This document shows positions 51,875-63,807 of a stretch of DNA of 64,000 bases, piece by piece. The translations under genes and the position numbers were made by a program. The first letter of the stretch is position 1, and each line of letters starts with the position of its first letter. Under the pieces are notes generated by a model. The model was not told the origin of the DNA and ran no database searches. It saw only the letters and a list, made by a program, of their open reading frames with translations. Location of the stretch: contig NZ_CP062983.1 of assembly GCF_015500095.1 (NCBI RefSeq), positions 3,906,001 through 3,970,000 of the forward strand, written 5' to 3'. This stretch comes from Phototrophicus methaneseepsis (GTDB lineage Bacteria > Chloroflexota > Anaerolineae > Aggregatilineales > Phototrophicaceae).

Positions 51875-52669
51875 CTAACGCATCAATCTGCGGCGCAGAT
51901 TCTTGGCACGGAACTGGCTCTCTTCCGCCAGTACAAGCGTCAGGCCAAATACGACGAGCGTGTTCGTCAGCAAGAAAAAGACAAATTCTTCAATGGGCAG
52001 CACACCTAAATAGATGCCTAATGACTGCGCCGGATCAATTGCCCAGGTACCCGCCCCAATAGCGACCATATCCGCCACAGAGAGATAAATCGTAGTCAGC
52101 AAAATAGCAGGCACGACAATACGCGCATGCCGCAGCAAAATATCACCTCCAAATAGGACCTGTATCAGCACCGGAATCAGTGCCCAGGCCAATTCCAGGG
52201 AGAAATACGTTACCGGCTTAAACGCCTGCGATACCAAGCTTATCCCCAGCAAGACAACGCTCACAAGCCAGATAACCGCTGTAATAGCTGTCATGATGCG
52301 GCGTGCGACATCATCTTCAGCTTGCAGCGGATCAAGCGGGATATAGCGCATGAGCAGCAGCGTGAACAACGCAGTCATAATCGGCTGCAAGAGGAAGAAG
52401 ATATATTCTTCTATAGGCACGTAGCCAATGATAAGGCCATTCACCAGCAGCGGGTCATACCACCAGACGCCCGTTGCCACAAGGTAATTATCCCAGGGGG
52501 TCGTATACAGGAATGCCACCACACATAGGCCCAACATAACGATCCATGGTGATATAGCGTCAAAAGCCCTGGGCATCCACTGGCCGCGCACATAATCCAC
52601 AATCGTCACAATACTGAGCACCAGCAGAGGGCTACCCAGGAAGACCGCCAGGAAAGCGAAGTACGTCAT
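51875..52669 (-). CDS. crtY: Fused CrtYcd-type lycopene cyclase
   Basis: A 264-residue integral membrane protein with about seven helices and two homologous halves, each carrying the conserved PxEE motif: PIEEY at 85-89 and PIEEF at 225-229, both followed by FFLL. This is the fused form of the actinobacterial CrtYc/CrtYd heterodimer, also seen in archaea and in fungal CarRA. It would close one or both ends of lycopene to beta-rings. With CruF and desaturase-like genes on the other strand, a monocyclic gamma-carotene type product is the natural prediction. It lies 8 bp after ldh. Confidence 0.88.
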   Translation of the reverse strand: MTYFAFLAVFLGSPLLVLSIVTIVDYVRGQWMPRAFDAISPWIVMLGLCVVAFLYTTPWDNYLVATGVWWYDPLLVNGLIIGYVPIEEYIFFLLQPIMTALFTLLLMRYIPLDPLQAEDDVARRIMTAITAVIWLVSVVLLGISLVSQAFKPVTYFSLELAWALIPVLIQVLFGGDILLRHARIVVPAILLTTIYLSVADMVAIGAGTWAIDPAQSLGIYLGVLPIEEFVFFLLTNTLVVFGLTLVLAEESQFRAKNLRRRLMR

Positions 52670-52677
52670 CGTGAGCG

Positions 52678-53634
52678 TCAGGCCCCTTCCTGCTCGATCA
52701 AATCTGTAATGAGGCCCTTGATGAGCGAAGCGCTGTGATGGAGTTGTGAGCGCTCTTCATCCGTCAGGCTAAGCGGGTTGTGTTCACCAATAACGCCATT
52801 GCCGCCGAGCATATGTGGCATCGCCACCGTGACATCTTCCACGCCAGCCACGTTGCGCTCAGGGTTACAGATTGTCAGGATCGAGCGTTGATCATGCAGG
52901 ATAATATCAACAACGCGGGCTAGTGCGCTCCCAATGCCATAGTACGTCGCGCCTTTGCCATTGATGATGTGATAGGCTGCATTGCGAACGCGATTTTCAA
53001 TCCCGGCTTTGATTTCATCATTCCAGGTGATACCCCGATCATTACAAAATTCCAGCAAGGGCACACCACCGACAGCCACCATTGACCATACCAGCACTTC
53101 ACTGTCGCCATGTTCGCCAATCACATAAGCATGCACATGGCGAGAATCCACGCCCACGTGGCGCGCTAACAATGCCCTGAAACGTGCTGTGTCCAGCATG
53201 GTGCCGCTGCCCAATACACGGTCCGGGCTAACACCCATCTGCGCTGCATAGCGGGCTGTGAGATGCGTCATAATATCGACAGGGTTCGTCGCAACAACCA
53301 GAATTGCATCCGGCGCAGCATTGAGGATAGCAGGGACGACCTGTTTAAACACGGTGGCGTTGCGGCCAAGCAACTGTAAACGCGTCTCGCCCGGCCTTTG
53401 CCCGACGCCTGCTGCGATAATCACAACTCGGCAGCCCGCCAAGTCTTCATAATCCCCTGCCGTAATCTCCAAAGGGGAGGCAAACGGCACAGCATGATAG
53501 AGATCATCCGCTTCTGCCTGCGCCCGCTCTTTATTGAGATCGACTAAGACAATTTGCCGCCCGATGCCGTTCATCACCATGGCATAGGCTGCTGTCGCGC
53601 CAACAAGCCCACTGCCAACAATGCCAATCTTCAC
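52678..53634 (-). CDS. ldh: L-lactate dehydrogenase
   Basis: A 318-residue LDH/MDH-family enzyme. The NAD motif [15 protein letters not shown] opens the protein. The loop [10 protein letters not shown] near 77-86 has Gln where malate dehydrogenases have Arg, which marks lactate specificity. [13 protein letters not shown] near 141-153 and GEHGDSE near 173-179 (catalytic His) are intact. It interconverts pyruvate and L-lactate with NAD(H). Unusually it lies inside the carotenoid operon, 21 bp after crtB and 8 bp before the lycopene cyclase, all in the same direction. Confidence 0.92.
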
Positions 53635-53655
53635 ATGTTCCCCTATCGTTCTGGT

Positions 53656-54618
53656 TTATCTAATGCTGGCTGTACGCGCCTGCCACCAGATACGTGGCAA
53701 ACGGACCAGCTTGCCCATTGTACTGACATGAGCACGCCGCGCAAACACATTATAATCATGTGCTTCGATGTCTTTTAGGACTGCTTCATAAAGGCGGGCT
53801 GCTGCCGCGATAGCAAATCGGCCATCCTTTGCCAACATCGCGATCCCAGGCAAGGATTCTGCATACAGTTGGCGGGTACGCTCAATCTGGAAAGCCATAA
53901 AGCGCCGCCACTGGTCGTTAACGTGCTTTGCCGCAATCTGTTCTTCCGTCACACCAAACCGCTTAAGCTCATCCTGCGGTAAATAGAGGCGGCCATTTTG
54001 CCAATCTTCGCCCACATCACGCAGGATATTGGTTAGCTGTAAAGCAACGCCTAACCGTACGGCATAAGGCAGCGCCTCCTCGCCTTCAAAGCCGATGATA
54101 TGCATCGCCATCAGGCCGACTGTCGATGCCACCCCATAGGAATACTCCGCTAGATCAGCAAAAGTCTCGTAACGCGCCTGGGCAATATCACGGGCACAGC
54201 CATCAATGAGCTGTTGTGCATAGCCCCGCGGAATATGGAAGCGCGTCTGGGTATCGGTCCAAGCCAAACTCACCAGCGAATTGGGGTCCGGCGTTGTCGC
54301 CATAATCGTGCTTTCCCAGGCATGCAAAGCAGATAGGCGCTGCTCGGTTGTCCGCTGAGGCTCATCAACAATATCGTCCGTAATACGGCAAAAAGCATAG
54401 AGCGCCCTCACGGCCTGCCGTTTTTCTTCTGTCAGCAAGCTGGACGCCACAAAGAACGTCCGGCTGTGCACGCGCGTCATTTGCTCACAGTAATCATAAG
54501 CTGTCGCCATGACAGATTGATCTGTCGGGTGTGTTATGTGCAGCTTCTGGCTATCGAGCGCTTCCGTCGCTGCACGGAGCAAGCGCACTTCCCAGGGTTG
54601 TGATTGCAACAGGCTCAT
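53656..54618 (-). CDS. crtB: Phytoene synthase
   Basis: A 320-residue squalene/phytoene synthase. The two Asp-rich Mg-diphosphate motifs are DDIVDE at 81-86 and NILRDVGED at 197-205. [16 protein letters not shown] near 52-67 is typical of CrtB. It condenses two geranylgeranyl diphosphates to phytoene, the first committed step. Its ATG overlaps the crtI stop codon by 4 bp. The order crtI-crtB is the common bacterial one. Confidence 0.94.
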
Positions 54619-56150
54619 AAGGTGTGCTCAACCGCTAAACGGTTTGTGAGACTGGCAGGCGCTTTAAAAGTATCTCGCGCCGGGCCGATTAAATTTTCAA
54701 CAATGATAGATGACGATAAGACGCCGGGTAATCCTGCGCCTGGATGCGTCCCCGCACCAACAAAATAGAGATTCTCGAAATCCTCTGAGCGGTTATGCGG
54801 CCGGAACCATGCGGATTGCGTCAGAATGGGTTGAACGGAAAAAGCCGATCCCATCCGGCTGTTGAGCGTATTACGGAAGTGTAGCGGGTCAATAAAGTGC
54901 TCAGCAACAATATTTGCCTGGAGATCCGGCAGATAGTTCTCTTCCAAAAATTGCATGATAGCATCACGGTACGGCTCCGCCATGACGTTCCAATCGATGC
55001 CGGAACCAAGGTGCGGGACAGGCGAGAGCACATAAAAATTCTCATGTCCTTCTGGCGCGATGGAAGCATCCGTCAGCGTAGGCATATGCAAATACAGTGA
55101 AAAGTCATCGGCCAGCTTCTTCTTCTGGAAGATATCCTCCAACAAACCTTGGTAACGATGGCCCAGGATAATATTGTGATGCGATAGACCCACATCCCGA
55201 TATTGGCGCTTGGTACCGAAGTAAATCACCATCAAAGACATGCTGTGCTTCATTAAGCGCATCTTCGTCTTGAGGTAGAGGCTTTGCTTGTTTTTGTCGA
55301 TCATATTGTGATAGACGTAGCTCACATCAGCATTCGCCACAACATGATCCGCCGGAACGAAGGTGCCATCACCCAGGCGAACGCCCGTAGCACGTTTACT
55401 ATCAATGACGATCTCGTCAATTTCCGTATCGAGATGCAGCTTGCCGCCCAACTCTTCAAAGAGCTGCACCATAGCTTTGACGACGGCTCCGGTCCCACCA
55501 ACGGCATACCAGATACCCCATTCACGCTCCAAATAATGGATCATGGCATAAATGGAGGGTGCATCAAACGGGTTGCCACCAATCAACAGCGGATGAAACG
55601 AGAAACAGCGTCGTAAGAACTCATCGCTGACGAACTGGGACACATAACGATACACGCTCAGGTAAGATTGCAGTTTGATCAGGTCCGGCGCAACCTTGAG
55701 CATATCCGTGAAGTGCAAAAACGGCTTATCAGCTAGCTCCACGAAGCCCTTCTGGAAGATAGCCTGTGTCGTCGCCATGAAGCGCTGATAGCCTTCGCGG
55801 TCAGCAGGGTTCCATTTAGAAATCTGGTCCAGGATGAAGTCTTCATCGCCGTTGTAATCAAAAGCATTTTTGTTGGCATCAAAGATACGATAGTAAGGAT
55901 CACAAGGCACCATCTGGAAATAATCTTCACGGCGTTTACCCGCGACAGCCCATAAATCATCGAACATAAAGGGCGCTGTAATCACTGTCGGCCCGCCATC
56001 AAATTGAAAGCCGTTCATCTCATAAACATATGCGCGCCCACCCGGTTTATCGCGCTTTTCAAACATCTCGACATCATGGCCTTGTGCAGCCAGGCGGATT
56101 GCTGCGCCCAGGCCACCAAACCCACTGCCGATAATTATGACTTTAGACAT
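54615..56150 (-). CDS. crtI: Phytoene desaturase
   Basis: A 511-residue bacterial CrtI. The FAD motif [20 protein letters not shown] (residues 5-24), [21 protein letters not shown] near 37-57 and the C-terminal [20 protein letters not shown] near 463-482 are all typical. It converts phytoene to lycopene in several steps without a plant-type isomerase. It is the first gene of the minus-strand crt operon and is coupled to crtB. About 278 bp separate it from the divergent hydrolase gene, the likely control region of both carotenoid blocks. Two further superfamily members lie at 48459 and 60792. Confidence 0.94.
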
Positions 56151-56428
56151 CTTGCAGATCCCTCGTGATGAATACTGGTGTATTTATCCCCTGTGCCCCA
56201 TAGCAGAGCATGAAGCACGGTTAAGAAAAAAATGAGCAAACCTAACAAAAAGTAGTCTATATTTAAATGATGAGGAACCTCTATTATGACTACGCCATCC
56301 CAATCTATATTATGGTCGCCAAATCTCAGTGTTTTAGATGACTGTTCTTAGTTTTATCTCATGAAAAGCCGCTATACTGACGACCGTTTTATAGTGCCAT
56401 CTTTGACAACAACAATGCGGTATTTCCT

Positions 56429-57268
56429 ATGTTTCCATTTGGTCCAGCATACCAGGGTGAACACTATCAACCATTCTATTGGCGGGGTACGCATGGCAGT
56501 GCATTGCTTGTGCATGGCTTCCCAGGGCACCCCGGCGATATGCGTGCAATTGCAACACATCTGCATGATAAGGGCTGGACGGTCGATGTACCGCTTTTAC
56601 CGGGATTCGGCAGCCAGATTGAGCATTTGCCGGAGTACCGCTACGAAGATTGGCTGGCAGCCACACGATCACATTTAGGCAAGCTGATTGCGAATAACCA
56701 GCGCCCGAATGTGCTGGTCGGCTACTCGATGGGTGGCGCGATTTCTATGGCAATGGCTGCTGATTTTGACATTGATGCGCTCATCCTGTTTGCCCCTTTC
56801 TGGCGGATTGAGCATATGCTGTGGCGTATGTTACCTGCTTTGAAGTGGTTTGTGCCAACCTTTAAGCCTGCCGAACTGCTCAGAATCAACCTGGATGACG
56901 AAACATTCCAGGCAGGCCTGAGAGAAATTATCCCCGGCGTGGATTTTGCCGACCCGACAACGCGCAGCAGTATGGAAAGCTTCCGTCTACCGACACATGT
57001 CATTGATCAGGTGCGCGTCGCAGGACAAAACGGCCATGCAAATGCCGCTAATATCACTGTGCCGACGCTCATCGTACAGGGGACACGCGATGACCTGGCA
57101 GAAGCCCGTCTCACTCGCAAATTAGCCGATGAACTCAGCGCGCCTGTCACCTATGTTGAAGTTGATTGCGATCATGCTTTGTTGGAAGATTCGCAAACCT
57201 GCTGGCCACAGGTTATTGAGGCCGTTGACGCATTCATCGACATGTATCATCTGGGGTCAACACGTTGA
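56429..57268 (+). CDS. Alpha/beta hydrolase
   Basis: A 279-residue serine hydrolase. ALLVHGFPGHPGD near 25-37 forms the oxyanion region, the nucleophile is Ser100 in GYSMGG, the acid is probably the Asp pair in GTRDDLAE near 218, and His lies in DCDHALLED near 248. The pattern resembles bacterial carboxylesterases and monoacylglycerol lipases. It is the first gene of the plus-strand carotenoid tailoring unit and overlaps the next gene by 4 bp. It may act on an acylated carotenoid, a membrane lipid, or something unrelated. Confidence 0.83.
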   Translation: MFPFGPAYQGEHYQPFYWRGTHGSALLVHGFPGHPGDMRAIATHLHDKGWTVDVPLLPGFGSQIEHLPEYRYEDWLAATRSHLGKLIANNQRPNVLVGYSMGGAISMAMAADFDIDALILFAPFWRIEHMLWRMLPALKWFVPTFKPAELLRINLDDETFQAGLREIIPGVDFADPTTRSSMESFRLPTHVIDQVRVAGQNGHANAANITVPTLIVQGTRDDLAEARLTRKLADELSAPVTYVEVDCDHALLEDSQTCWPQVIEAVDAFIDMYHLGSTR

Positions 57269-58263
57269 GCAGCTATTTCACACGGGCGATGAATCCGGCT
57301 TGGTATCACGGTCATCATCAAAAACCGCCCTTCTTCGAAGGTTGGTATTACAAGCTCATCAATGCGGCGGAAGATAAACGCTTTGCCATTATTCCAGGCA
57401 TTTTCCTAAGCCGAGAAAATAGTAAAACGCATTCATTTGTGCAGGTACTCAACGGCATGACGGGCGAAGCAACGTATCATCGCTTTGAGTCCTTTGAAGC
57501 CAACCGTGATGCCTTTGATGTGCATATTGATCGTAACGCCTTCAGTATGGAACGCATCAACCTGAATATCGACAACGCTCAGGGCCACGTCAATGGGGAG
57601 CTAACCTTCACGAATATGCAACCCTGGCCCGTCACATTGACCGCACCGGGTGCGATGGGCTGGTATGGTTGGCTGCCCAATATGGAATGTAATCATGGGG
57701 TTATCAGCTTCGACCATGAGATTCAGGGCTCGCTGACAATCAATGATGAAACCATCGATTTTACAGGCGGGCGTGGCTATATCGAAAAAGATTGGGGCCA
57801 ATCCTTCCCGAAGGGTTATATCTGGCTGCAAACAAACCACTTCGACTCTATCGGTACCTCGCTGACGTGCAGCATCGGGATTGTACCCAAGCCTGTCGGA
57901 GGGCCTTTCCCAGGTTTCACAGTCGGTTTGATGCACAAAGGGGCACTATATAAGTTTGGTAATTTCAATAATGCGAAAATCAGCGAGCTAGCGGTCAGTG
58001 ATACCGCTGTTGAGTGGCATCTGTATACCGCCCATCACGAACTGGTTATCCATGCCACACGAGCCGAAGGTGGCTTATTGATGGGGCCTGAACGCGACGA
58101 CATGCTGAAACGCGTTGATGAAACGATGAAAGCTGAAGTTGATGCGACACTTTATGCATTGGATGGCGTGCGTCGCCTCAAGTTGTTCCAGGGGCATGGG
58201 CGTGCAGCCGCTATGGAAGTCGTCAACGTCAATCCGCTATTAGAACTCTTGAAAATCAAATGA
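57265..58263 (+). CDS. Tocopherol cyclase / CrtC-like lipocalin-fold protein
   Basis: A 332-residue protein. FFEGWYYK near 23-30 and GRGYIEKDWGQSFPKGYIWL near 168-187, followed by QTNHF, are hallmark segments of the tocopherol-cyclase family, a lipocalin-like fold related to carotenoid 1,2-hydratase CrtC. Such proteins add or rearrange water or hydroxyl groups on terpenoid tails, or bind them. Here it lies between a hydrolase and CruF with 4-bp overlaps on both sides. A direct role in carotenoid hydration or carotenoid binding is likely. Chlorophyll or quinone genes that would favour tocopherol are not present. Confidence 0.78.
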   Translation: MSSYFTRAMNPAWYHGHHQKPPFFEGWYYKLINAAEDKRFAIIPGIFLSRENSKTHSFVQVLNGMTGEATYHRFESFEANRDAFDVHIDRNAFSMERINLNIDNAQGHVNGELTFTNMQPWPVTLTAPGAMGWYGWLPNMECNHGVISFDHEIQGSLTINDETIDFTGGRGYIEKDWGQSFPKGYIWLQTNHFDSIGTSLTCSIGIVPKPVGGPFPGFTVGLMHKGALYKFGNFNNAKISELAVSDTAVEWHLYTAHHELVIHATRAEGGLLMGPERDDMLKRVDETMKAEVDATLYALDGVRRLKLFQGHGRAAAMEVVNVNPLLELLKIK

Positions 58264-59048
58264 CCACCCTCCCCCGCTTCATCCGCAAACCACAAATACA
58301 CACAATGACTGTGTGGCAATATGGCTTGATTGCCTTATGGGCGCTTGCAATGATTACCCTGCCGATTGGCCGTTGGGTCGCAGGTGATGCGATCATCCCT
58401 GGCTGGACGACAATGGCCGCAATTTTGCAATCCGCTGCCGCATTCAGCGTTTTAGTTGCAGCCTGGGGCTGGCATCGGGCAATCAGAACGTTCTTCATCA
58501 TCGCACTCATAGGATGGGCGGCGGAATTTGTCGGGCACCAAACGGGCTTTCCTTTTGGGCACTACACATATACAGACGTCCTGCATCCTCAGATTGGCGG
58601 CGTGCCGCTGCTGATCCCGATTGCATGGTTTATGCTCATGCCCTCTGCCTGGGCGATGGCCCAATGCATCATACCTGACCGAACGACACTCAAGAGTCGC
58701 CTGGCCTTCGTTGGCGTCAGTGCACTGGCGCTCACAGTCTGGGATTTATTCCTGGATCCTCAGATGGTCGGATGGGGCTTCTGGGAGTGGGCACAACCGG
58801 GCATTTACTTCGGCATTCCGCTCCAGAATTATGCAGGCTGGTTTGCTGTGAGTGCCCTGATTACGCTTGTGGCACAGCCTCAGGACTTACCTATTCCCTC
58901 GCTCGCCCTGATTTATGGCCTCGTCTGGTTTTTGCAGATGGTAGGCTTGGGCGTGTTTTGGGGGCAAATAGGGCCAGCGCTGGTTGGCTCAGTCGCAATG
59001 GGGAGCATATTGTTAGCAGCTTATTATCGCAAACGGAATGCCCCATGA
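58260..59048 (+). CDS. cruF: CruF-like carotenoid 1',2'-hydratase (DUF422 family)
   Basis: A 262-residue membrane protein with about seven helices. FVGHQTGFPFGHYTYTDVLH near 87-106 is the most conserved part of the CruF/bisanhydrobacterioruberin-hydratase family (formerly DUF422). IPIAWFMLMPSAWAMAQ near 121 and DLFLDPQMVGWGFWEW near 162-177 with its acidic residues agree. In cyanobacteria CruF adds water at the acyclic psi end of gamma-carotene, and in haloarchaea at the bacterioruberin ends. It overlaps the neighbours on both sides by 4 bp. Confidence 0.88.
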   Translation: MTTLPRFIRKPQIHTMTVWQYGLIALWALAMITLPIGRWVAGDAIIPGWTTMAAILQSAAAFSVLVAAWGWHRAIRTFFIIALIGWAAEFVGHQTGFPFGHYTYTDVLHPQIGGVPLLIPIAWFMLMPSAWAMAQCIIPDRTTLKSRLAFVGVSALALTVWDLFLDPQMVGWGFWEWAQPGIYFGIPLQNYAGWFAVSALITLVAQPQDLPIPSLALIYGLVWFLQMVGLGVFWGQIGPALVGSVAMGSILLAAYYRKRNAP

Positions 59049-59665
59049 TCGCGCTCTGGACCCTGGCGACGTATCTCATCAGCAGTGTGCCCTTCTCGCT
59101 CCTACTTGGCTGGTTCATCATAGGGAATGACATTCGCCACTATGGGGACGGCAACCCTGGCGCAACGAATCTCTATCGCGCGACGGGCAGCCGCTTCTGG
59201 TATGTGATTGCCGTCTGCCTGGATGGGGCTAAGGGCCTGTTCCCGGTTGGTATCGCCTATTGGATCATCGGCATTCAGGATTGGGGGATTGTGCCCATTG
59301 CCCTGGCTGCCATTGCTGGGCACGCCTTCAGTATCTATCTGGGCTTTAAAGGGGGCAAAGCAGTCGCGGTCACAGGCGGCACATGGATCGGCCTGACGCT
59401 CTTTGAAATGCCCCTGGTCATTGGCGCCATGCTCAGCTATTGGTATCGCTCTATGGAAGAGAGCAACTGGGTCACTGTGATTATGATGCTCTATATGCTG
59501 GTCTATTTGCTCATCACACGTCCCGATAATGGCCCCTTTCTGCTCATCTGGCTGGGCAACTTCTTGATTGTGCTATATCGACATCGGCAAGGGCTTAACA
59601 CGGTGCCTACTATCAAAAGATGGCTGCCACTTTTGCCTAAAGACCTGCCCAAAGAAGGTATTTAG
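59045..59665 (+). CDS. plsY: PlsY-like acyl-phosphate:glycerol-3-phosphate acyltransferase
   Basis: A 206-residue membrane protein with about five helices. The three PlsY motifs are visible: SSVPFSLLLGW near 13, DGNPGATNLYRATG near 34-47 and GHAFSIYLGFKGGKAVAVTGG near 97-117. The usual reaction is acyl transfer from acyl-phosphate to glycerol 3-phosphate at the membrane. The start at 59045 is fixed by the 4-bp overlap with cruF. An open frame reaching back to 58772 lies inside cruF and is not real. Its place between CruF and a glycosyltransferase suggests that it may acylate a carotenoid glycoside instead, or as well. Confidence 0.87.
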   Translation: MIALWTLATYLISSVPFSLLLGWFIIGNDIRHYGDGNPGATNLYRATGSRFWYVIAVCLDGAKGLFPVGIAYWIIGIQDWGIVPIALAAIAGHAFSIYLGFKGGKAVAVTGGTWIGLTLFEMPLVIGAMLSYWYRSMEESNWVTVIMMLYMLVYLLITRPDNGPFLLIWLGNFLIVLYRHRQGLNTVPTIKRWLPLLPKDLPKEGI

Positions 59666-59674
59666 GCAACAATC

Positions 59675-60799
59675 ATGATCGTGCTGGTTGGATTCACGCT
59701 GTTTGCATTGCTGGTTATCACGCTGACGATGATCGCCAATGTTTTGATATTCCCACGGCTGAAAACAGCTCACAGTGATACTATGCCCCATGTGTCGATT
59801 CTCATCCCGGCGCGCAATGAAAGCGCTATTATCGCCCACACACTAAACGCCCTGCTCAACCAGACTTATCCCCATTACGACATCACAATCCTTGATGATC
59901 ATTCCGAGGATGACACAGCTTCAATTGCAGAAGCTATCGCCCATCAAGATGAGCGCTTGCGCGTCATCATCGGGCAACCGTTGCCCACAGGCTGGATGGG
60001 CAAAAGCTGGGCCTGCCATCAACTGGCACAGCAGACGACTGGTGACGTGCTGATCTTCACCGACGCAGATGTCTATTGGCAGCCAGAAGCACTGGCAAGC
60101 CTCATCGCACAGATGCAAACCACGCAAGCGGATTTACTCTCTATCTGGCCGACACAAACAACCCTCAGGTGGGCGGAACGGCTGGCAGTGCCCCTCATCG
60201 CGATGGTTATCCTGGGCTATTTACCGCTCGTTATGGTACATCGTTCGCCTTTTGCCATCTTCGGTGCAGCCAATGGACAATGTATGGCCTGGCAACGCAG
60301 CGCTTATATGCGCATTGGTGGGCATAAGGCGGTTGCCAATAATGTATTGGAAGATGTGACCCACGCGCGATTGGTCAAACAAGCCGGGCTGCGGCTGCGG
60401 ATGAGCGATGGAAATCAATTCATCGGCTGCCGGATGTACGATGGTTGGCCTGCTGTACGCGACGGCTTCGCCAAAAATATCCTGGCAGGCTACGGCAGCG
60501 CCTTTGCATTGGCATTGGCGACTGTATTCCATGTAACCGTATTTTTATCGCCATATATCTGGCTCCTATGGACCCAATGGCGGCCTTATGCTTTACTGGC
60601 CATTGCCCTTGGCATAGGGTTACGAGCGCTCTCTGCCGCGTTTACTCATCAGCGCGTGCTGGATAGCCTGCTTATGCCTGTCTCCGTATTATTGATGACG
60701 CGTATCGCCCTACAGGCTTTCTGGTGGCATTTTACGGGTGGCCCTCGTTGGAAAGGCCGCCTCATTCAACAATCCACCCAAGGTGCACACCATGGCTAA
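59675..60799 (+). CDS. GT2 glycosyltransferase, CruG/CrtQ-like
   Basis: A 374-residue membrane glycosyltransferase of family 2. A leading helix (residues 3-28) precedes the catalytic domain, with ILIPARNES near 42-50, the Asp pair DD at 74-75, the metal-binding DAD at 129-131, LED near 230 as the base, and a CRMYDGW segment in place of QxxRW. Two or three helices close the protein from about 275. Architecture and context beside CruF resemble CruG, which attaches sugar to the 2'-hydroxyl of myxol in cyanobacteria, and CrtQ of staphyloxanthin synthesis. The sugar is not predictable. It overlaps the next gene by 8 bp. Confidence 0.82.
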   Translation: MIVLVGFTLFALLVITLTMIANVLIFPRLKTAHSDTMPHVSILIPARNESAIIAHTLNALLNQTYPHYDITILDDHSEDDTASIAEAIAHQDERLRVIIGQPLPTGWMGKSWACHQLAQQTTGDVLIFTDADVYWQPEALASLIAQMQTTQADLLSIWPTQTTLRWAERLAVPLIAMVILGYLPLVMVHRSPFAIFGAANGQCMAWQRSAYMRIGGHKAVANNVLEDVTHARLVKQAGLRLRMSDGNQFIGCRMYDGWPAVRDGFAKNILAGYGSAFALALATVFHVTVFLSPYIWLLWTQWRPYALLAIALGIGLRALSAAFTHQRVLDSLLMPVSVLLMTRIALQAFWWHFTGGPRWKGRLIQQSTQGAHHG

Positions 60800-62273
60800 T
60801 TTACCGATTATCATTATTGGCGCTGGTATGGGTGGGCTTGCCGCAGCGATCCGGCTGCGGTTGGCGGGCTATGATGTGCACATCTATGAGAAGAATGCCA
60901 CCGTCGGCGGCAAAATGAGCCAGTTCAGTGCAGATGGTTTCCGGTGGGACACCGGGCCATCCGTCATAACCATGCGCCATGTCTTCGAGGAATTGTTCCA
61001 GGCAGCAAACCGCAACTTCAGCGATTACGTGACTTTGCAGCCGCTGGAACCTCTCACGCGCTATTTTTATCATGATGGTACCGTACTTGATGCTGTCAGT
61101 GATCTTCGGCGTATGGCACAGCAGATTGAGCGCATTGAGCCACGAGATGTTGAGGGGTATTTGAGCTATCTGGCGTATGCTGCGCGCATTCACCGTGTTA
61201 CCGGGCCTGTATTTATCTACGATCAGCCGCCTACCCTGGGCAGCTTTGCCCGCGTGCCAATATCCGAGTGGCTGTACGCAGACCCTTTCCGCACCATGCA
61301 GCAGGCGATTAATAGCAAGGTGCGTTCACCGTATTTACGGCAATTGCTGGGTCGCTTTGCAACGTATGTGGGCGGCAGCCCTTATGAAGCTCCGGCAACG
61401 CTGAACGTTATCGCCCATATTGAACTGACAGGCGGCGTCTGGTATGCGGTAGGCGGCGTCTATAAAATTGCTGAAGCCGTACAACGGCTTGCGCTGGAAC
61501 TGGGTGTAGAAATTTACACAAATACAGTTGTTGACCGTATCCTGGTGGAGAGTGGCACTGCAATGGGCGTCACCTTAGCCAATGGAGAAACGGCTACCGC
61601 GAAGGCCGTGCTCGCCAATGTGGACGTTACAACGACTTATGACCAACTACTAAAGCCGGATGACGCCCCAAAAAGACGCTTAAAGCAGCTCAAGGCTTAT
61701 GAACCTTCTTGCTCTGGCTTTGTGATGATGCTGGGCATTGATAAACAGCACCCACAATTGGCACATCATAATATCTTCTTCAGCGATGATTACCCGGCTG
61801 AGTTCCAGGCAATCTTTAAAAAACAGCAACCCGCAGAAAATCCAACCATCTATGTAGCAATCACATCCAAAACAGATGCCGACCATGCCCCGCCCAATTA
61901 TGAGAATTGGTTCGTCCTGGTCAATGCACCCGCCCTCTCACAAGAGATCAATTGGCGTGCGATCCAATCAGATTATCGTAACCGGATTTTGGGTATACTG
62001 GCAGGGCGTGGCTTTGATATACGCGAGAACATCATCAGCGAACATATCCTGACGCCATTGGATTTACAGGTTATGTCTGGTGCGTGGCGCGGCGCGCTCT
62101 ACGGTCCCTCTGCCAATAAAACATTCACGGCCTTTTTGCGGCCGCATAACCGCAGCCGAGATATTCAGCGACTTTACTTTGTGGGCGGCACAACCCACCC
62201 TGGGGGCGGCATCCCGATGGTGACGCTCTCCGGTAAAACAGTCGCCCAGATGATTATTGATGATATTGTGTGA
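60792..62273 (+). CDS. CrtI-type carotenoid desaturase paralogue
   Basis: A 493-residue CrtI-superfamily enzyme. The FAD motif IIIGAGMGGLAAAIRLRLAGY (residues 6-26; Gly-rich core at 9-14) and GGKMSQFSADGFRWDTGPSVI near 38-58 open the protein, and YFVGGTTHPGGGIPMVTLSG near 466-485 closes the FAD site. It differs from the CrtI at 54615 in the middle region. Context after CruF and the glycosyltransferase suggests a late desaturation, such as a 1-hydroxycarotenoid 3,4-desaturase, instead of phytoene desaturation. The start at 60792 follows AAGGTG. An earlier ATG at 60738 lies deep inside the glycosyltransferase gene. Confidence 0.82.
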   Translation: MANLPIIIIGAGMGGLAAAIRLRLAGYDVHIYEKNATVGGKMSQFSADGFRWDTGPSVITMRHVFEELFQAANRNFSDYVTLQPLEPLTRYFYHDGTVLDAVSDLRRMAQQIERIEPRDVEGYLSYLAYAARIHRVTGPVFIYDQPPTLGSFARVPISEWLYADPFRTMQQAINSKVRSPYLRQLLGRFATYVGGSPYEAPATLNVIAHIELTGGVWYAVGGVYKIAEAVQRLALELGVEIYTNTVVDRILVESGTAMGVTLANGETATAKAVLANVDVTTTYDQLLKPDDAPKRRLKQLKAYEPSCSGFVMMLGIDKQHPQLAHHNIFFSDDYPAEFQAIFKKQQPAENPTIYVAITSKTDADHAPPNYENWFVLVNAPALSQEINWRAIQSDYRNRILGILAGRGFDIRENIISEHILTPLDLQVMSGAWRGALYGPSANKTFTAFLRPHNRSRDIQRLYFVGGTTHPGGGIPMVTLSGKTVAQMIIDDIV

Positions 62274-62289
62274 ATGACTATAAGAAATA

Positions 62290-63192
62290 ATGAAAGCCTA
62301 CTACACCGACGTTTTTGTCCTGCCACTGCCAGAGGGGCATCGCTTCCCTATGGCGAAATATCATCGTCTAAGGGAACGCATCCTGGCTACAAACACGCTC
62401 CCGGCAGAAAATCTCATCATCCCAGACGCAGCCACCGACGAAGATATTCTGCGCTGTCACACCCGTGATTACCTCGAAAAAGTGAAAAACGGGACGCTCA
62501 GCCATCAAGAAGTGCTGCGGATTGGCTTCCCATGGACGCCAGAAATGGTCGAACGCTCAAGACGGTCTTCTGGTGCGACGATCTGCGCGAGTATGACCGC
62601 TCTAGAAGAAGGCGTTTCTGCCAATCTTGCAGGGGGCACGCATCATGCAGGCCGGGACTTCGGGGCGGGGTTTTCCGTGTTTTGTGATGCAGGCATCGCA
62701 GCACGGGCCTTACAAGCCAGGAAGATGGTCGAACGCGTGCTGGTTGTGGATTGTGATGTGCACCAGGGGAATGGCACAGCAGATGTCTGCCAGGGCGACC
62801 CCAGCATTTACACCTTTTCTATCCATGGGGAGAAGAACTTCCCCTTTCGTAAAATACCCGGAGACCTAGACCTCGGCTTGCCCAATGACACAGGAGATGA
62901 TCCTTATCTGGAAACGCTGGAATTCGCCCTGGAGCGGATATTAAGCGTCTTCGACCCGGACCTGGCCATTTACCAGGCAGGGGCAGATCCTTACATTGGC
63001 GACCGTTTAGGTAAGCTCGCACTCAGCAAAGAAGGCTTGGCGCGTCGTGATCGGCTGGTTATGGAGATGCTGCGAAGTGAGTCGATTCCTGTTGCTGTGA
63101 CAATGGGCGGCGGTTATGCCCCAGAGATCGAGCATATTGTGGATATTCACCTGCAAACGATCCGCATTGCCGCCCAATATGCCACAGGCTGA
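62290..63192 (+). CDS. Histone-deacetylase-family hydrolase (class IV-like)
   Basis: A 300-residue zinc deacetylase-fold protein. GGTHHAGRDFGAGFSVF near 115-131 holds the two active-site His (118 and 119). The zinc site is DCDVHQGNG (Asp156 and His158) plus the Asp in QAGADP near 240. MGGGYA near 279 carries the transition-state Tyr. The pattern is of the bacterial group close to class IV (HDAC11), which act on acyl-lysine, acyl-polyamines or other acyl amides. The gene follows the desaturase by 16 bp, so it could be the last gene of the tailoring unit, though no chemical link is obvious. Confidence 0.87.
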   Translation: MKAYYTDVFVLPLPEGHRFPMAKYHRLRERILATNTLPAENLIIPDAATDEDILRCHTRDYLEKVKNGTLSHQEVLRIGFPWTPEMVERSRRSSGATICASMTALEEGVSANLAGGTHHAGRDFGAGFSVFCDAGIAARALQARKMVERVLVVDCDVHQGNGTADVCQGDPSIYTFSIHGEKNFPFRKIPGDLDLGLPNDTGDDPYLETLEFALERILSVFDPDLAIYQAGADPYIGDRLGKLALSKEGLARRDRLVMEMLRSESIPVAVTMGGGYAPEIEHIVDIHLQTIRIAAQYATG

Positions 63193-63193
63193 A

Positions 63194-63676
63194 TTATGAC
63201 GAGGCTTCTTCCTGAGGTGCAGATGCCATCAGTAAGGTTAAATTCCCCTTCTGTACCGTTTTTCCATCCTGGTTGACGATCTTCATATCAAGCGTGACGA
63301 CCCCGCCACCCAAACGACGCGCTTCTTTTTTGTCGCTAACGACGATCTCAGCATGGATCGTATCACCAATATAGACAGGCACGCTGAACTTCATCTCTAG
63401 GCCACGGAAACCCAACACAGTCCGTTCCAGAATACCGAGCTGGTACGCCTGCCCAACGGCATAGCTAATCGTCAGCATCCCATGAGCAACACGCTGCCCC
63501 ATAAAGGAGGTTTTGCAATATTCGGCATCCGTATGCATGGGGTTAAAGTCGCCCGTCAGGGCAGCGAATTGCACAATATCCGCTTCTGTAATCGTACGTC
63601 CCCGCGTCATCATCTGGGAACCGACTTCAAATTCTTCAAAATAAAGGCCACGTGGGGGCTGGAGCTCTGCTGCCAT
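63194..63676 (-). CDS. MaoC-like (R)-specific enoyl-CoA hydratase
   Basis: A 160-residue hot-dog-fold protein. The hydratase-2 motif lies in GDFNPMHTDAEY, with catalytic Asp43 and His48, and RVAHGML near 60 follows. GRTITEADIVQF near 26 is typical of PhaJ/MaoC proteins. It hydrates trans-2-enoyl-CoA or a related acyl-CoA. The start at 63676 has AGGGAG seven bases upstream. An ATG twelve codons earlier lacks a ribosome binding site. It converges on the deacetylase gene with a 1-bp gap. Confidence 0.85.
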   Translation of the reverse strand: MAAELQPPRGLYFEEFEVGSQMMTRGRTITEADIVQFAALTGDFNPMHTDAEYCKTSFMGQRVAHGMLTISYAVGQAYQLGILERTVLGFRGLEMKFSVPVYIGDTIHAEIVVSDKKEARRLGGGVVTLDMKIVNQDGKTVQKGNLTLLMASAPQEEASS

Positions 63677-63807
63677 AATAGGTCTCCCTAATGTGGGTGA
63701 ATTCTGGTTCATCTTATCAAAAGCAAAATAAAACTGAACGCCTATCTTAACACCACAAGTCTGATGAGGATGCTACTACCGAGGAATACAGATATGGCAA
63801 AGGGCAC

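Follow-up and report, generated by a model that had tools for sequence, protein, structure and literature searches.

The window analyzed here is a stretch of 64,000 nucleotides from Phototrophicus methaneseepsis (contig NZ_CP062983.1, positions 3,906,001 to 3,970,000 of the forward strand), and the gene in question encodes a PlsY-family membrane acyltransferase located between genes for a CruF-type carotenoid hydratase and a glycosyltransferase of family 2 (GT2). PlsY is the dedicated enzyme of the first step of phospholipid synthesis, and its pocket for glycerol 3-phosphate (G3P) has been described as "highly invariable". Judging from its residues and its gene partners, we consider it fairly likely that the window PlsY is an acyl-phosphate-dependent glycoside acyltransferase, serving here for carotenoid glycosides and replacing CruD. 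It would thus be a PlsY by descent and predicted fold, placed outside G3P acyltransferase function because the residue set that defines the G3P clamp is not complete, and not a CruD. We infer all four of its attributes, namely acyl-phosphate as donor, the sugar as acceptor, a carotenoid glycoside as substrate, and the order of glycosylation and acylation. The original prediction, made from the same DNA, had proposed a new acyltransferase that puts a fatty acid on the sugar and draws acyl-phosphate, and the changed clamp, the intact acyl-phosphate site, the GT2 partner and the exchange of CruD and PlsY described below support it. The gene and its two diagnostic codons are as follows.

59045..59665, + strand: the gene under study, for a 206-aa membrane acyltransferase of the PlsY family, Asp35 type (PF02660; structure model)
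59147..59149, + strand: GAC codon of Asp35, at the position of Ser35 in the G3P phosphate clamp of aaPlsY (alignment, sequence)
59591..59593, + strand: GGG codon of Gly183, at the position of the aaPlsY clamp residue Asn180 (alignment, sequence)

The window PlsY scored 114.9 bits against PF02660 (cut-off 24.1), indicating that it belongs to the PlsY family by descent. A structure search with its AlphaFold2 model (pLDDT 93.9) gave five solved matches at E ≤ 0.001, all of them PlsY, and the best was aaPlsY 5xj5 (TM 0.78 and 0.81, 2.1 Å), with 32% sequence identity over 186 residues. The window protein resembles this acyl-phosphate:G3P acyltransferase (PDB 5xj5-5xj8) in predicted fold and in the acyl-phosphate residues, whereas it differs at Ser35 (Asp) and Asn180 (Gly), in its branch of the tree and in its gene partners. 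With the NCBIfam equivalog TIGR00023 (cut-off 137.2), the window PlsY scored 99.9, seven other Asp35 copies 102.7-121.8, and two Ser35 copies 152.2 and 167.7; because the genome's own Ser35 copy (130.1) was also under the cut-off, we set this cut-off aside as a discriminator.

In aaPlsY, the phosphate of G3P is clamped by Ser35, Arg45, Lys104 and Asn180, acyl-phosphate is bound by Thr41, His92 and the backbone of Lys104-Ala107, and Asn37 is given a catalytic role (Li et al. 2017, PMC5700162). When aligned to it, the window PlsY has Asp35, Arg45, Lys104 and Gly at position 180, so that the G3P clamp set is incomplete; the acyl-phosphate site is present throughout (Asn37, Thr41, His92, K-A-V-A at 104-107 and the GGK loop), and His177 of the G3P site is retained. 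Asp is found at position 35 in 2.7% of 7,288 homologues, and the aaPlsY mutant N180D, with 3.3% activity left, has a 22-fold higher Km for G3P, for which the authors give charge repulsion as the cause (PMC5700162). The chemistry of PlsY is proposed there to proceed without a protein base, the acyl-phosphate itself taking the proton (PMC5700162). If the acyl-phosphate does accept the proton itself, a switch of acceptor might need only a reshaped clamp.

The residue at position 35 was then typed in 93 copies, comprising 92 of the best 93 PlsY matches from 350 Chloroflexota genomes (G082:C44 was left out) and the second copy of the present genome. It was Ser in 63, Asp in 24, and Glu, Thr and Gly in 2 each. 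All 53 readable Ser35 copies had Asn180 (10 more have a gap there), versus none of the 25 readable Asp/Glu35 copies. A GT2 gene was located within 600 bp of 21 of the 26 Asp/Glu35 copies and of none of the 63 Ser35 and 4 other copies (Fisher 5e-16 for Asp/Glu35 versus Ser35, where the rows are related and the p-value is a guide only). Among the GT2-less Asp/Glu35 copies, that of locus L004 adjoins CrtB, that of L008 adjoins CrtYcd and that of L030 lies at a contig end after CruF, and none of GT2, CrtB, CrtYcd and CruF was seen beside the Asp35 copies of L201 and L203. The 21 GT2-linked copies had N37 in 20 cases, H92 in 21 and H177 in 8.

A further set was recruited with a peptide pattern in which Asp35 is required, and 80 named loci were retained from 277 confirmed genome-collection matches; their flank lengths vary with the contig ends, and the match end of PlsY is approximate in many, so distances may err by tens of bases. 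The record titles are mostly Chloroflexota, with one each of Poribacteria, WOR-3, Stahlbacteria, Neomarinimicrobiota and Coprothermobacterota. GT2 was found within about 300 bp in 65 of the 80 loci, CruF within 3 kb in 47 and CrtD within 3 kb in 28, and the frequencies of GT2 and CruF indicate that the arrangement is not due to chance. In the other 15 loci, GT2 was not within 300 bp, and four of these end on the downstream side within 350 bp. The proteins could be read in 77 loci, L091, L113 and L156 being left out as the matched stretch crossed a stop codon. N37, H92, G102, G103 and K104 were present in 77/77, T41 in 54 and Arg45 in 66, and position 180 was acidic (Asp or Glu) in 67 and otherwise Gly (6), Thr (2), Ser (1) or a gap (1). 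Asn180 was thus found in 0/76 readable proteins. From the changed clamp and the retention of most acyl-phosphate residues, one would predict that the enzyme uses acyl-phosphate on an acceptor without a phosphate group.

The window-type proteins formed one branch of 41 rows (SH-aLRT 98) in a tree of 113 rows, which was made by a quick method with the trait columns included. L030 was omitted from it as too short, and 20 recruited rows were added, all to the GT2-named group, although no GT2 lies within 300 bp in L097, L103, L116, L124 and L140. Outside the main branch were the Glu35 copies of L212 and L214, beside GT2, and the Asp35 copies of L201 and L203, without GT2. For a second tree of 88 rows (41 Asp/Glu35), made by a careful method, we took out the trait columns and thinned 25 rows as near-identical or similar. 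The Asp/Glu35 label needed 2 changes on this tree versus a mean of 29 for shuffled labels, and the starred branches force 2. The window PlsY therefore does not group with ordinary PlsY, as a comparison with housekeeping copies in a tree had been proposed to decide: it lies on a separate branch, and the clustering remains when the trait columns are removed. As for L212 and L214, their genomes have no CrtI-family gene over the cut-off, and their clamp may have become acidic independently.

Acylation of carotenoid glycosides has been assigned to CruD. In Thermomicrobium roseum, the C-terminus of CruF forms an acyltransferase domain whose presumed target is the sugar that CruC adds, Salinibacter has separate CruF and CruD for the two functions (PMC2615216), and the CruD of Chloroflexus is described as a carotenoid glycoside acyltransferase (PMC4155588). 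CruD and the window PlsY are alike in their place beside or fused to CruF, in their GT2 and CrtI-family neighbours and in predicted product, and they differ by family, as CruD has a PF01553 domain and the Pfam scan found none in the window PlsY. Two loci, L061 and L062, encode a fusion of CruF and acyltransferase (PF04240 + PF01553). From these two CruF-fused domains, with CruF masked, we built a CruD profile, by which a divergent CruD could be missed, and applied it to 64 of about 109 listed CruF matches of the Chloroflexota sample. Within 3 kb of CruF, CruD was found in 14 loci, PlsY in 3, both in 0 and neither in 47. Among the recruited PlsY loci, 46 of the 47 with CruF have it within 3 kb of PlsY, and this profile, with which a CruD distant from CruF was not sought, found CruD in none of the 80. 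The two genes beside CruF thus gave Fisher 2e-4 (the rows being related), with CruD and PlsY together in 0 of the CruF loci examined. The 14 CruD-linked genomes contain 20 PF02660 copies, of which 16 have Ser35, 3 have Ala or Pro and one has Asp35 with a different motif, and in the fetched stretches a GT2 match was near none of the 20. These results indicate that a window-type PlsY likely stands in for the unrelated CruD beside CruF. In three of the genomes that have CruF with CruD (L297, L298 and L299), the PlsY with Ala or Pro at position 35 matches the clamp poorly and is the only PF02660 match of the genome.

The genome consists of one contig of 5,631,885 bases, and a second PF02660 gene was found at G000:C1 2355585-2356166. 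Its product has Ser35 and Asn180 and shares 31% identity over 144 residues with the window PlsY. The suggestion that the window gene might be the only housekeeping PlsY is hereby removed; the search proposed for a second plsY beside plsX was borne out as to the second gene and not as to its place, as plsX is single-copy at 3677176 and does not adjoin it. PlsX makes the acyl-phosphate. The two PF01553 acyltransferase genes of the genome, at 1246123 and 3069779, are far from the cluster (~3958-3970 kb). In G240 (97% complete), the only genome listed in the same family, neither a CruF match nor, at 1e-100, a CrtI match was found, and its one PF02660 gene is of the Ser35/Asn180 type; therefore, the pigment genes and the window-type PlsY are absent together and the other type is retained. 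None of the 22 searched genomes with an Asp/Glu-type copy has it as the sole PF02660 gene: each carries between 2 and 6 in total, and few of the additional copies were typed.

The second copy has Phe at the position of aaPlsY His177, and the change of His177 to Phe leaves 0.3% of the activity of aaPlsY (PMC5700162). We considered that the second copy might be the odd one in this respect and rejected it, since Phe177 is common to it and all five typed relatives, including the single PlsY of G240 (L312, read in a wrong frame, was left out). Because of this sharing, Phe177 is likely a normal feature of the housekeeping enzyme of the lineage.

The following route is proposed as the simplest. CruF would make a carotenoid hydroxyl, to which the adjoining GT2 would add a sugar, and acyl-phosphate derived from PlsX would bind in the retained pocket of PlsY. 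Of the four residues that clamp the phosphate of G3P, two have been replaced, one of them by an acidic residue; the pocket that once took the phosphate is now either acidic or small and may take in the sugar. A hydroxyl of this neutral polyol would replace the 1-OH of G3P as acyl acceptor, and the product would be a fatty-acid ester of the carotenoid glycoside. A comparable role is presumably that of CrtO in staphyloxanthin synthesis, which we take to be a membrane acyltransferase that acts on a glycosyl carotenoid, has a GT2 partner and belongs to another protein family. CrtO was not among the Pfam and NCBIfam matches of the window PlsY.

Several observations weigh against this proposal. The requirement of at least two label changes means that Asp/Glu35, although strongly clustered, yet forms no single clean clade. 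The acyl-phosphate side is uneven in the 21 GT2-linked Asp/Glu35 copies of the typed set, with T41 in 6 (11 have Ala) and K104 in 12 (8 Arg, 1 Met); the Ser35 copies vary as well (T41 in 33/63, K104 in 25/63). As the window PlsY has Gly180, Arg45 and His177, it may still bind G3P to some extent, and S35D is not among the aaPlsY mutants tabulated in PMC5700162. On the side of the substrate, the flanks of 25/77 recruited Asp35 loci showed no carotenoid gene, and no CrtI-family gene over the cut-off was found in 5 of 12 checked genomes (G114, G120, G192, G084, and G314, which is 58% complete). CruF and PlsY occur without a GT2 found alongside in L100, L103, L114, L140 and L142, and G072 holds CruF-GT2-CrtD with no PlsY between.

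The GT2-less CruF-PlsY loci, G072 and the pairs beside which or in whose genomes such genes were not found leave room for other neutral acceptors. A PlsY-fold acyltransferase might use acyl-phosphate to acylate a carotenoid hydroxyl, glycerol, a diol or another lipid alcohol, and the GT2 would act on the product or in parallel. The five CruF-PlsY loci just named are in accordance with such an enzyme, as is the PlsY-GT2 pair present in G114 and G120. Nevertheless, we regard it as improbable, since GT2 is the most constant neighbour (65/80; 21/26) and the same place in other Chloroflexota is held by CruD, which the literature credits with acylating the sugar.

The occurrence of the pair in genomes without a CrtI-family gene over the cut-off suggests that the family is broader than carotenoids. 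An Asp35-type PlsY with GT2, frequent in Chloroflexota and also seen in records titled as a few other phyla, could be a general cassette for glycosylation and acylation, whose PlsY half would comprise acyl-phosphate-dependent glycolipid acyltransferases; the substrates would be carotenoid glycosides where CruF is linked and other lipid alcohols in desaturase-free genomes. We give this extension an even chance.

The tight pairing with GT2 might also be expected of a PlsY-fold subunit without catalytic activity that holds GT2 in the membrane or stabilises it there, and the f47/f21 subgroup beside GT2 lacks His177 and carries Ala in place of Thr41. We think this very unlikely in view of the five residues retained in 77/77 recruited copies, the intact acyl-phosphate loop of the window PlsY and the 15/80 copies without GT2 within 300 bp, including the four near a contig end. 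Least probable of all is a G3P acyltransferase, either a housekeeping enzyme whose gene drifted into the operon or an additional one tuned to the pigment operon, for which the same predicted fold as aaPlsY, the retained R45, K104, H92 and H177 and the Phe177 of the second copy, a change damaging to aaPlsY, can be cited, but against which stand the separate branch, the joint change of two clamp residues, the further PF02660 gene in all 22 searched genomes and the likely lineage-normal state of Phe177 in the second copy and its five typed relatives.

In the titles and abstract openings searched, where most subscription papers and all preprints are outside the coverage, no link of PlsY to acylation of carotenoids or glycolipids was found. 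If the glycoside acyltransferase reading is true, it would represent a natural switch of acceptor in PlsY and, as far as we know, the first case of a sugar or carotenoid glycoside being acylated with acyl-phosphate as donor. The acyl step of carotenoid clusters where CruD was not found would then be accounted for, and caution would be called for with genes named PlsY, since some of them would not encode G3P acyltransferases.

The remaining genes of the pigment locus are listed below.

58260..59048, + strand: CruF-type carotenoid 1',2'-hydratase (PF04240; under the specific NCBIfam cut-offs)
59675..60799, + strand: GT2 glycosyltransferase (nearest NCBIfam models HpnB and CruG, both under cut-off)
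60792..62273, + strand: CrtD-like carotenoid 3,4-desaturase (TIGR02734 family)
57265..58263, + strand: tocopherol-cyclase-like protein (PF14249)
56429..57268, + strand: alpha/beta hydrolase, first gene of the run (PF12146)
62290..63192, + strand: histone-deacetylase-like protein, last gene of the run (PF00850)
54615..56150, - strand: CrtI-like phytoene desaturase, divergent (family profiles)
53656..54618, - strand: CrtB-like phytoene synthase, divergent (family profiles)
52678-53634, divergent with CrtI and CrtB: dehydrogenase, lactate/malate type by eye, between CrtB and the lycopene cyclase
51875..52669, - strand: CrtYcd/CarR-type lycopene cyclase, divergent (family profiles)

Because the scores of CruF and GT2 are under the specific NCBIfam cut-offs, their substrate names depend on family and context. 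According to the open reading frame (ORF) coordinates, CruF, PlsY, GT2 and CrtD follow one another without interruption inside a seven-gene run at 56429-63192, with spacings of -4, -4, -4, +9, -8 and +16. The ATG of PlsY shares 4 bp with the TGA of CruF (ATGA overlap), GT2 starts 9 bp downstream of PlsY, and the ATG of CrtD at 60792 gives an 8-bp overlap with GT2; the earliest possible start in the CrtD frame is a GTG at 60738, which gives a longer overlap. The consecutive order, the 4-bp overlap of CruF and PlsY and the overlap of GT2 with the next desaturase had all been noticed before, and the coordinates agree with them. The order of twelve genes at 51875-63712 is preserved in L083, a metagenome-assembled genome (MAG) titled Anaerolineaceae NAT117, with 47-86% identity. 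A motif scan was of little use, giving 7 promoter-like sites versus 8.9 expected and 14 terminator-like sites versus 7.0 expected.

The tocopherol-cyclase-like gene at 57265-58263 overlaps CruF by 4 bp, and relatives of it were found close to PlsY in 11/80 recruited loci. Relatives of the alpha/beta hydrolase at 56429-57268, which might hydrolyse esters of the same pigment, were close to PlsY in 24/80, and a relative of the dehydrogenase at 52678-53634 was seen in 3/80 (L083, L085 and L096). In L073 (7766-8800) and L079 (3834-4892), a MerR regulator with a B12-binding domain is directly upstream of the PlsY-GT2 pair, beside CrtB, CrtI and CrtYcd; we take these regulators to resemble light-responsive carotenoid regulators. 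In a Dehalococcoidia MAG (L087:6244-8612), two window-like PlsY genes are interleaved with GT2 genes, the first of which is in two pieces.

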